Source: a virus. Taken from it: DNA of 47,102 nucleotides. The stretch is from IMG/VR virus record IMGVR_UViG_3300037247_000506, positions 1 through 47,102 of that record. The stretch is one strand, 5' to 3'. Positions 2,690-8,499 of this stretch are shown here, piece after piece; the first letter of the stretch is position 1; each line of letters opens with the position of its first letter. The position numbers and the translations under genes are program-made. The notes under the pieces were generated by a model that saw only the letters and a program-made list of their open reading frames with translations, did no database searches and was not told the DNA's origin.

Positions 2690-2955
2690 GAGCGCCAGGT
2701 TCTGGAGTGAACAACCATGAGGTGCCCCAGGCGCTTCTTCGCTCGAATATCTCGGACTTCCCGCACAGCCCAGCGCATCTTCCGGCGGGCGAGGTAGCGT
2801 CTAAGCATCAGGCCAGCTCCAACGATATCCTGATCTCCCAGGACCGCCATTCTGGCCGGCGGAAAATGTCCACTGTCGGCTCTCCAGATCGCGCTATCCA
2901 GTTTTCTCGCCGCTGCCAGCCGAGCATCAGCCTGCGTGAGGAACTCAGGCATCAT
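2686..2955 (-). CDS. Small basic protein between terminase and portal
   Basis: An 89-residue basic protein (starts MMPEFLTQADARLAAARK) with several Arg/Lys-rich helices. Tandem ATG codons at 2955 and 2952 overlap the terminase stop, so start choice is ambiguous by one residue. The placement suggests a packaging or head role, but the family is unknown. Confidence 0.75.
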   Translation of the reverse strand: MMPEFLTQADARLAAARKLDSAIWRADSGHFPPARMAVLGDQDIVGAGLMLRRYLARRKMRWAVREVRDIRAKKRLGHLMVVHSRTWRS

Positions 2956-4352
2956 ATATCTCCGTACACCCTCACGGCTTTCGTCTGCCGCTTGCCAGGC
3001 AGCTTCTTACCATCGTACTCGAACAGCACGTTCGCCAGCGCGTCGAAATAGTGGTCGGGGTCGCCGCGCTCGAAGTCGTCGGTCATGATCTCCTCCGCTG
3101 AGCCCTGGAGTTTCGTGCGTCGCCAGGACAGCCCCTCCAGTTCCCCGATCCCATTCGGGGACTCGGGCGTGATGTAGAGGCCCGGCATCTTCGTCGCAGA
3201 GTCCACGTTGAGCCGTGCGCCGACAACTTGGACACGGAGAGCAATCCTGTTCCCGTGACGGGCCTTCTGGACCTTGAAGCCCATCGCCCGGAGCGCGTCG
3301 ATCTGCGCCTTCCCTGAAGGATCGGCGATCCACTTCCTGATCCCACAGCGGATCTGCATGTCGGCCATCGCCTTCCCAAGTTCGTCCATCGTGGCTTCGC
3401 GCTTGTACCATTCCTCGAAGGCCCAGGCGCGGCCGCCGGCGCCGATGCCTACAGCCACAAGCGCAGTCGGCGACACGCCGCCGAAGTCGATGCCGCCGAT
3501 GCGGTCCTTGAGGAGAACCCGGCCCGCAGCGTCCAGCGTCTTGACGTGATCGTAGCGGGTGAACTGGGGGAACACCTGGCCGGCCATCTGGAGCCACTGG
3601 CCGCCGAGTTCCTGCCTGGCCAGCGGGTTGTCCCAGCCGCCGTAATTCTCTAGCAAGCGTGCCGTGTATCCTGCCGGGGCCAAGCCTGCATCTTCGGCAG
3701 CCTGAGTTTGGGCAAAGAACCGCGCCACGCGGCCATTTGGTCCGGTCATAGGCTTGTCAACATAACGCCGCCAGACCCAGTTGCGCCCCTTGGGCGTCCC
3801 CGTTGCCTTGAGTTGATGAAGGTAGCCAGCCTGACGTATACGCCCATCAAGAATGAGGAAGGCTTCTTCCTGCTTCCCCAGGGTGAATTCGTCCATGAGC
3901 ACGCGCGCGAGGTTGGGGCCGCGCAGCCGGTCGGCCTGAACGTCCACAGAGCGAAACCAGAGCGTAGAGCCGTTGGCGAACGTAATGTCAACGGGAGGGC
4001 TCCGCGTCATAGAGAAGAATGTGCCCAGCTGTCCACCATAGCATTCCTCGACGGTGGGTATGAGAATGTCGGACACCATTTGCCAAGTTGGTTCAGTCAT
4101 AACCTGGCGCGACCCAGGGCAATTCCAGGCGTAATCAAACGCATCAACCACCAGAACGCGAGTCTTGCCGATGTTGATGCCGCCGTGGTAGAGCGCATAG
4201 AAGTCGCGAGAGTTGTAGAAGTCGCGTTGCGGATATGTGCAACCGCAGTTGGGCGGGTGGGGCTTTACCTTGGCGTACTGGCAGACGCCGCTGGGCGCGT
4301 GGCGGATCAGGGAGAAGTCGGTTGTGGGGCGAACGTCAGTTGCGACGCCCAC
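2952..4352 (-). CDS. terL: Terminase large subunit
   Basis: A 466-residue packaging motor: an N-terminal ATPase that translocates DNA and a C-terminal RNaseH-fold nuclease that cuts concatemers. Visible signatures are Walker A GGINIGKT at residues 57-64, Walker B-like VLMDEF near 152, a coupling motif ATGTPKG near 186, then nuclease acidic residues in GGIDFGGVSPTAL (about 288), WIADPSG (about 340) and DPDHYFDAL (about 440). Start is GTG at 4352 after a GGGAG ribosome site. The upstream CxC cluster in residues 24-38 is unusual but not diagnostic. Length and motif order are normal for the family. Confidence 0.93.
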   Translation of the reverse strand: MGVATDVRPTTDFSLIRHAPSGVCQYAKVKPHPPNCGCTYPQRDFYNSRDFYALYHGGINIGKTRVLVVDAFDYAWNCPGSRQVMTEPTWQMVSDILIPTVEECYGGQLGTFFSMTRSPPVDITFANGSTLWFRSVDVQADRLRGPNLARVLMDEFTLGKQEEAFLILDGRIRQAGYLHQLKATGTPKGRNWVWRRYVDKPMTGPNGRVARFFAQTQAAEDAGLAPAGYTARLLENYGGWDNPLARQELGGQWLQMAGQVFPQFTRYDHVKTLDAAGRVLLKDRIGGIDFGGVSPTALVAVGIGAGGRAWAFEEWYKREATMDELGKAMADMQIRCGIRKWIADPSGKAQIDALRAMGFKVQKARHGNRIALRVQVVGARLNVDSATKMPGLYITPESPNGIGELEGLSWRRTKLQGSAEEIMTDDFERGDPDHYFDALANVLFEYDGKKLPGKRQTKAVRVYGDI

Positions 4353-7123: not shown

Positions 7124-7375
7124 TTAGGCTCCCCTGGGCACTTGGGGCACCCCGGCTGCCACCTCCCGCTGCCGGCTGTGGCACACGGCGTGGCAAGGGT
7201 AGCAGAGCCAACGTAGAGAGAGGGGATCATCGTAGTCATCGTGGTGGCCGACTAGCTTGGCCTCGACCCCGCACTCCGCACACTCGTCACCCTTGGGTAC
7301 CAGGCCAGAGCGCACAGCCAGCGTGGCCTGGTAGCGGGCCTCATATCGATGCATCCTCTCCTCCTGTGTTAGCAT
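7124..7375 (-). CDS. HNH-fold small protein
   Basis: 83 residues. C-x2-C (CAEC) then GHHDDYDDPLSLRWLCYPCH and a final H give the treble-clef pattern of a widespread small phage HNH-like family. It lies next to the small terminase, where HNH proteins often assist packaging cleavage in other phages. Whether it retains nuclease activity cannot be told from sequence. TGATG coupling to the terminase gene. Confidence 0.75.
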   Translation of the reverse strand: MLTQEERMHRYEARYQATLAVRSGLVPKGDECAECGVEAKLVGHHDDYDDPLSLRWLCYPCHAVCHSRQREVAAGVPQVPRGA

Positions 7376-7725
7376 CACTCCTCCAGGTCGTCCAGGCAGT
7401 GTGCCTCCCCCGTTGGCAGGGCCTCTAGGGCCTCCTGGGGTGCTATAGGGGCCAGGTCACGGCCCACCGCGCCTATCAGGGCGTGGAGAGGCCTCTCAGC
7501 GTCTCCTGAGACTGTGATCGACTGGGCCGGGGTGCCAAGGTGCCGGTCCACCATGTACTTGATGGTGCCGGGGTCGCCGGCGTCCACCAGCTTGTCCAGG
7601 GCCAGGGCTATCTTCTCGTAGGGTATCTGGGACCGGAGCACGTCCATCAGCTCCTTGGCCTCGGTGGGGCGGCCTGTGAGGTTGCGGCGCGGGTCGTAGC
7701 CGGGCTTAAAGGCGCCGGGGATCAT
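7375..7725 (-). CDS. terS: Probable terminase small subunit
   Basis: 116 residues. The N-terminus FKPGYDPRRNLTGRP matches the GxSGNxxGRP-like opening common to small terminases and DUF5681 proteins, followed by a helical core (MDVLRSQIPYEKIALALDKLV) and DPGTIKYMVDRHLG. It would recognise phage DNA and load the large subunit. First gene of the minus-strand late transcript, 37 bases after a TTGACG-N17-TAGCCT promoter. The ribosome site is weak. Confidence 0.7.
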   Translation of the reverse strand: MIPGAFKPGYDPRRNLTGRPTEAKELMDVLRSQIPYEKIALALDKLVDAGDPGTIKYMVDRHLGTPAQSITVSGDAERPLHALIGAVGRDLAPIAPQEALEALPTGEAHCLDDLEE

Positions 7726-7761: not shown

Positions 7762-7790
7762 AGGCTAGCCCATCGGTGCTGATCCGTCAA
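7762..7790 (-). promoter_or_regulatory. Promoter of the minus-strand late block
   Basis: Minus strand: TTGACG (7785-7790), 17 bases, TAGCCT (7762-7767), 37 bases before the small terminase ATG. Matches the two other late promoters in -35, spacer length and the TAGCxT -10. Confidence 0.65.
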
Positions 7791-7838: not shown

Positions 7839-7856
7839 TTTGCGGATTGGCGCAAA
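7839..7856. promoter_or_regulatory. Operator-like dyad between divergent promoters (TTGCG site 2)
   Basis: TTTGCG-GATTGG-CGCAAA, 6-base perfect arms, located between the two divergent promoters and ending 5 bases before the plus-strand -35. Position fits a repressor or activator site. It is also a member of the dispersed TTGCG dyad family. Confidence 0.6.
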
Positions 7857-7861
7857 GGGTA

Positions 7862-7890
7862 TTGACAAGGTTGGCCAGGTGTGGGATGCT
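7862..7890 (+). promoter_or_regulatory. Promoter of the plus-strand early block
   Basis: Perfect TTGACA (7862-7867), 17-base spacer, GATGCT (7885-7890) with a TG two bases upstream (extended -10). Predicted start near 7897, exactly where the structured leader begins. Confidence 0.6.
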
Positions 7891-7896
7891 AGGGTC

Positions 7897-7969
7897 GTGG
7901 ACAGGCGAACGAGCCCTATTTCTTTCGCCAGTTGCGCCCCGGCTGCGAGTCTGTCCACACAACGGGCTC
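7897..7969 (+). ncRNA. Candidate structured 5' leader RNA (three-way junction with pseudoknot)
   Basis: Four helices fit without conflict. P1: 7897-7904 (GTGGACAG) with 7951-7958 (CTGTCCAC), 8 perfect pairs. P2: 7905-7909 (GCGAA) with 7924-7928 (TTCGC). P3: 7929-7934 (CAGTTG) with 7940-7945 (CGGCTG), including two G-U pairs. Pseudoknot: 7911-7916 (GAGCCC, in the P2 loop) with 7964-7969 (GGGCTC). P1/P2 and P2/P3 abut with no unpaired base. The 36 bases after it carry TAGGAGG and the first ATG (8006). It could be a riboswitch-like control, an RNA-protection element or a small RNA. Based only on hand folding. Confidence 0.5.
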
Positions 7970-8005
7970 TAGCGGTCGGGGCGTTCTGGGTTCTAGGAGG
8001 TAGAG

Positions 8006-8134
8006 ATGGCAACGGAGCGACAGGCAACGCTGACGGCGCTGAGGCTCATTCGTAAGCAAGTCGCGCAGCGCCACACAAACATCGCCAAGATAATGCTGGA
8101 CGGGCTCATCACCCAGCTAGAGCTGAAGAGCTAG
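8006..8134 (+). CDS. Small basic helical protein
   Basis: 42 residues, ATG 8006 behind TAGGAGG. Entirely helical and basic (ALRLIRKQVAQRHTNIAK). First gene of the plus-strand block and the direct target of the structured leader. Function unknown. Confidence 0.7.
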   Translation: MATERQATLTALRLIRKQVAQRHTNIAKIMLDGLITQLELKS

Positions 8135-8181
8135 CATCCACGCGGTGTGTCGGCGCCGGCAGGGAGGAGAGGAGAGGCGAC

Positions 8182-8499
8182 GTGAGAATTGCCATGATTC
8201 CGGGGTGTTGCCAGCACCTACACAACGATGCAGACATTTGGCCGCTTGTCGCTGCTGGGAGCGATGTCTTGGTAGTAAGCGCACTAACCCGCAAGCCCAG
8301 CATCCGAATCACGCGGCACTACCAGGCGCCCGGGCACTACCAGGCGCCCGGGCACTACCAGGCGCCCGGGCACTACCGGCCATCATACAGCGACCGCGAG
8401 ACACAGGCCGCCGATCTATGGGACCGCGTCCGCCGCGACGACCCCACGGCTATAACTGGCGTTGTTGCCCGCGCCCGCAAGCTGGGCCTAACCGCCTAG
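8182..8499 (+). CDS. Protein with in-frame HYQAPG tandem repeat
   Basis: 105 residues, GTG 8182 behind GGAGGAG. An alpha/beta N-terminus (MRIAMIPGCCQHLHND) leads into three perfect HYQAPG repeats around residues 46-63, then a helical C-terminus. The repeat is an 18-base tandem array and is likely length-variable. The N-terminal half vaguely resembles a small nucleotide-binding or SLOG-like strand-loop, but this is not secure. Confidence 0.65.
   Translation: MRIAMIPGCCQHLHNDADIWPLVAAGSDVLVVSALTRKPSIRITRHYQAPGHYQAPGHYQAPGHYRPSYSDRETQAADLWDRVRRDDPTAITGVVARARKLGLTA
8317..8370 (+). repeat. 18-bp tandem repeat, three perfect copies
   Basis: Unit CACTACCAGGCGCCCGGG, units at 8317, 8335 and 8353, followed by a partial copy (CACTACC). 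In frame, each unit encodes HYQAPG; each unit ends in the palindrome CCCGGG. Confidence 0.95.

Follow-up and report, generated by a model that had tools for sequence, protein, structure and literature searches.

A putative structured RNA leader kept ahead of unrelated genes in two related phages

The stretch of DNA analyzed here, hereafter the window, is the 47,102-base virus record IMGVR_UViG_3300037247_000506, the genome of an uncultured phage. The large terminase gene (TerL; Pfam Terminase_6N) lies on the minus strand at 2952-4352, and the open reading frames suggest that portal, capsid and tail genes are likely on this strand as well, while the small plus-strand genes form a short block from 8006 to about 10491. 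The divergent gap between this block and a minus-strand gene for a 116-aa protein (7375-7725) holds the leader described below. The 116-aa product, for which family searches gave no family, occupies the position of a small terminase subunit, and the order beyond the gap is this short protein, then an HNH endonuclease and TerL. Among the collected bacterial genomes, TerL has a single close relative, L228 (JAUVHW010000292.1), 80% identical and from an Ardenticatenales (Chloroflexota) MAG, a match that suggests, but does not prove, a host among the Chloroflexota. The features of the gap and its right border are as follows.

7762..7790, minus strand: divergent leftward promoter-like sequence (TTGACG 7790-7785, 17-nt spacer, TAGCCT 7767-7762), which would serve gene 7375-7725
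7862..7890, plus strand: rightward promoter-like sequence (TTGACA 7862-7867, 17-nt spacer, GATGCT 7885-7890, extended -10 TGG)
7897..7904, plus strand: P1 5' strand, GTGGACAG, pairs with 7951-7958; identical in both members
7905..7910, plus strand: single-stranded GCGAAC between P1 and X; identical in both members
7911..7916, plus strand: PK 5' strand, GAGCCC, which is segment X; partner 7964-7969, or partly 7941-7944
7919..7933, plus strand: conserved loop ATTTCTTTCGCCAGT; 7920-7933 differs at one position between members, G7927A
7928-7931, plus strand: P5 5' strand, CCAG; CCAG/CTGG identical in both members
7935..7946, plus strand: P4 5' strand, CGCCCCGGCTGC, includes segment Y (7941-7944); pairs with 7972-7983
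7951..7958, plus strand: P1 3' strand, CTGTCCAC; identical in both members
7964..7969, plus strand: PK 3' strand, GGGCTC, which is segment V; same register in the relative
7972..7983, plus strand: P4 3' strand, GCGGTCGGGGCG, which is segment Z
7986..7989, plus strand: P5 3' strand, CTGG, identical in the relative; detectable conservation stops here
7912-7915/7941-7944, plus strand: Px, the alternative helix X:Y
7993..8000, plus strand: Shine-Dalgarno-like TAGGAGG of the first rightward gene
8006..8134, plus strand: first rightward gene, 42 aa, ATG at 8006; family searches gave no family

The rightward promoter-like sequence predicts a transcription start at about 7897, where P1 begins, which agrees with the original prediction that P1 opens the transcript; the strong TAGGAGG site that it placed after the leader is likewise present, just upstream of the ATG. 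A stricter sigma-70 scan returned 0 sites and so did not call the rightward sequence. In a related phage, L002 (same record as L060 and L074; TerL 81% identical), the counterpart reads TTGACA-17-GATGGT with TGA, so that hexamers and spacing are kept, and the hexamers and spacer of the leftward promoter-like sequence are the same. From this arrangement we infer that 7897-7989 is a transcribed leader.

Relatives with the same gap (L002 and L003) were located by protein anchors, and one of them, L002, carries a homologous leader on its minus strand at 1757-1647. A covariance model built from the window alone recovers it with 44.7 bits (E 2e-8). MAFFT misplaced an insertion in the L002 linker; P4 was therefore put in register with a covariance-model alignment, and PK with the linker justified to the right. 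All eight pairs of P1 are kept, with identical sequence. P4 keeps 12/12 pairs through six substitutions, one of them a double change (G7936-C7982 to C-G) and four single-sided changes absorbed via G-U. PK stays in register and keeps five of six pairs; it shows three double compensatory changes and one G-G mismatch, and is longer in L002 (10/11 pairs), where the linker between P1 and P4 is 18 nt longer and has a hairpin of its own. The P1 strands and the GCGAAC and TTTCTTTCRCCAGTT loops are nearly invariant, the spacer past the element is not alignable, and similarity downstream of P5 is not above the shuffled control. That the leader is coding, or translated leaderless from a GTG, was rejected, as in L002 this frame meets a stop after 14 codons and contains gaps that shift it.

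The original prediction drew a three-way junction within the first 73 bases, formed by P1, P2 and P3, with the P2 loop further paired to the 3' flank. All four helices can be drawn as described, and P1 (7897-7904/7951-7958) holds up in the comparison, as PK (7911-7916/7964-7969) mostly does, but P2 (7905-7909/7924-7928) retains four of five pairs and P3 (7929-7934/7940-7945) four of six, both with uncompensated changes. The P3 strand pairs instead with 7972-7983, so the junction gives way to P4, and the 3' boundary proposed at 7969 moves, with conserved pairing continuing through P4 and P5 to 7989. The observation of a conserved structured RNA is thus partly confirmed and its interpretation partly supported, the fold having been half right; P1, P2 and P3 may exist together briefly before the 3' strand of P4 is transcribed. 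Because P4 replaces P3 and P5 continues to 7989, we delimit an element of ~93 nt, for which the alignment gives moderate support to an H-type pseudoknot of P1 and P4, perhaps crossed by a third helix. Its loops of 30, 4 and 13 nt would be compatible with an ordinary H-type pseudoknot.

Statistical support is concentrated on P4. Among 20,000 dinucleotide shuffles of 7850-8010, a test that addresses the revised fold and not the original one, none had a P1 of at least 7, a P4 of at least 10 and a PK of at least 5 pairs in this arrangement. P4 ranks first in a blind scan of stacks kept in both sequences; a kept stack of at least 12 occurs in 0.03% of column shuffles, and the survival of P4 has p 0.003. 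Jointly, P4 and PK retain 17 of 18 pairs despite 13 substitutions (p about 0.0002 for random placement, 0.012 for the same positions); support for PK by itself is weaker, with p 0.004 if its register is fixed and 0.075 if every register is permitted. The region 7897-7990 folds better than shuffles (z -4.05) owing to P4, which lies partly beyond the originally proposed range, whereas the 73-nt stretch 7897-7969 alone does no better than shuffles (z -1.1). By energy alone, the nested minimum-energy fold of the leader in the window contains an inner helix, 7947-7954/7962-7969, and not P1 with PK; this hairpin was dropped since only 3/8 of its pairs are kept in L002. At the level of sequence, then, P1 and P4 are conserved across two members, and PK is moderately supported. 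Px keeps 4/4 pairs with two double changes, but a stack of at least four with two double changes arises in 17% of column shuffles. It is incompatible with PK and, through the shared segment Y, also with P4; with Px kept in full and PK in large part across the members, either helix, or a switch between the two, would fit the comparison.

Further members were sought widely. Pattern and protein-anchor scans of viral and genome collections yielded no third member, nor did 400 Chloroflexota genomes searched with the model; phage and plasmid records gave no real match, although the whole-record DNA search overlooked even the L002 copy, so its empty answers do not establish absence. L231, from an Ardenticatenales MAG, proved to be a chance match inside a tail-sheath-like coding region, L252 (E 0.008 in the 400 genomes) lies in metabolic coding DNA, and L093 and other pattern matches were rejected for want of P4 or of context. 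Two members are known. The leader is absent from L003 (TerL 77% identical) and from the fragments L232 and L234, where a promoter-like -10 lies close to the ribosome-binding site, and it is therefore dispensable in the wider family. In agreement with the original statement that the RNA matches no nameable class, a search of Rfam 15 (4227 families) returned 0 matches at the gathering threshold in the window, the best permissive match (E 1.6) reaching 14.8 bits of the 62 needed.

The genes behind the leader differ between the two phages. The rightward proteins have no same-position homologs in L002, the first genes are not homologous, and one window protein, none of the others, weakly matches elsewhere in the L002 genome. 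A leader kept before unrelated genes points to an action on the transcript or the polymerase as a whole, and favours a gene-independent role in cis over a gene-specific riboswitch. We therefore tentatively favour, at somewhat less than even odds, a reading in which 7897-7989 is the structured 5'-terminal leader of a short rightward transcript and acts in cis on all of it. P1 would close first, probably once the first 62 nt are made; as the 3' flank appears, the first loop would pair with the P1-P4 linker to form PK; and transcription of 7972-7989 would allow the strong P4/P5 stem to form across P1, yielding an H-type pseudoknot whose 3' edge falls a few bases short of the ribosome-binding site. 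The finished leader might then modify the RNA polymerase that made it, in the manner of HK022 put RNA, or protect the 5' end, with which the data appear equally compatible. The fold leaves the ribosome-binding site uncovered and is followed by no U-run, so it looks like neither a simple terminator nor a switch that masks the site. Against antitermination, a scan of the plus strand of the rightward operon to 11000 found no intrinsic-terminator-like site that an antiterminator could act on.

Several other functions were weighed against a leader acting on the whole transcript. An unlikely one is a riboswitch-like device in which Y pairs either with X (7912-7915, enclosed by P1) or with Z, a ligand or protein deciding between them and altering translation of the operon from the adjacent downstream site. 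X:Y and the 12 pairs of Y:Z are both kept though mutually exclusive; the changes in Y (G7942A, T7944C) compensate X while G-U pairs with Z absorb them; the 5' half of the L002 leader alone folds into P1 plus X:Y; and the conserved unpaired loops resemble a binding core in a fold that abuts the ribosome-binding site. That site is covered in neither state, however, no terminator is formed, the great stability of the P4/P5 stem would make X:Y short-lived, the column shuffles readily produce stacks like Px, and the differing downstream genes would be unusual for a gene-specific riboswitch. The translational pseudoknot riboswitches SAM-II and preQ1-II/III are likewise H-type, and their conserved loops sit near a ribosome-binding site; here that site is outside the fold, the gene context is variable, and SAM-II and preQ1 covariance models gave no match in the Rfam search. 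The T4 gene 32 leader exerts autogenous control of one defined gene, that for gp32. A comparable operator, bound by a phage protein that spreads into the start site, seems quite improbable here: a pseudoknot at the predicted 5' end, shortly upstream of a ribosome-binding site, has its precedent in the gene 32 leaders of T4 and RB69 (PMC535899), but the first genes of our two phages are unrelated, downstream genes are not conserved, and family searches gave the tested rightward genes no resemblance to single-strand-binding proteins.

That the element is DNA (an origin, operator or packaging site) with inverted repeats that merely resemble RNA helices also appears improbable, if slightly less so. 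The site is divergent and intergenic and adjoins the short protein, HNH endonuclease and TerL genes, L232 and L234 hold GGACACGCGT arrays in the equivalent gap, and the P1 arms show the invariance expected of protein sites. Against this, the P1 motif is not enriched in the window (five occurrences against 2.2 expected), so a role for P1 as a recurrent operator was rejected; cumulative GC skew does not reach an extreme at the leader; and the downstream edge of conservation coincides with the end of P5. Moreover, each of the four non-Watson-Crick pairs that P4 has across both sequences is a plus-strand G-U, with no A-C among them, which fits RNA rather than a DNA cruciform; these pairs, few as they are, and the conservation spanning promoter to P5 favour plus-strand RNA. 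Finally, the pairs might survive by chance in two related phages, shared by ancestry with no function. The leader (80% identity) is about as similar between the phages as the neighbouring gene (78%), and there are just two sequences, yet sequence past the leader cannot be aligned, the shuffles never produced the arrangement, and P4 survives more substitution than chance readily allows. We give this little credence, and consider the leader real, structured and probably functional in its two known members.

To our knowledge, gene-independent leaders of this kind are rare, the best-studied being put RNA. The putL RNA of phage HK022, ~70 nt long, is found just downstream of PL and needs no dedicated protein; it consists of two stem-loops and a short triplex, and the text of PMC9378689 mentions no pseudoknot (PMC9378689). 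Like put, which follows an early-type promoter, the leader would be a phage RNA with a conserved fold, here directly behind a promoter-like sequence, and put too acts regardless of the genes downstream. Put brings about antitermination and antipausing in a factor-free manner. Put, however, has two consecutive stem-loops, whereas the kept helices P1 and P4 cross; the host group is another and there is no sequence match. Antitermination is proposed here by analogy. As the two-stem-loop fold of put is not found, we do not file the leader as a put RNA. Flavivirus xrRNA-type exonuclease-resistant RNAs are compact multi-helix pseudoknots that could protect an RNA end; their helix topology and order are unlike those of the leader, Rfam gave no match, and resistance here would be hypothetical. 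Should the favoured reading be real, this would be an undescribed structured RNA that starts a phage transcript and is kept while the genes behind it are replaced, in phages of a host phylum that is probably one with little-studied phages, and a compact test case for an RNA acting on its own polymerase or guarding its own end. A bolder version, to which we assign a low probability, is a phage leader of a new class whose helices P1, PK and P4 cross mutually (abcABC) as a closed three-helix knot, with a strand exchange from X:Y to X:V plus Y:Z during transcription and protein-free modification of the host polymerase.

Repeats recur elsewhere in this material. The phage-like contigs L232 (1330-1640) and L234 (400-680), of the same MAG, carry GGACACGCGT/GGATACCTAA-like repeat arrays where the RNA is absent; the L232/L234 gap also has a long hairpin that keeps its pairing although the two contigs differ in its stem sequence. 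Three unrelated phage contigs, L131 and L195 on the minus strand and L159 on the plus strand, contain clustered GTGGACAG/CTGTCCAC repeats, perhaps iterons or operators. In the window, the 105-aa rightward ORF at 8182-8499 has an in-frame tandem repeat, GGCACTACCAGGCGCCCG (HYQAPG), at 8318-8378, and the intergenic CGCGGTGTGTCGGCG behind the first rightward gene (8140-8160) is identical in L232 (1978-1992), where the preceding gene differs.
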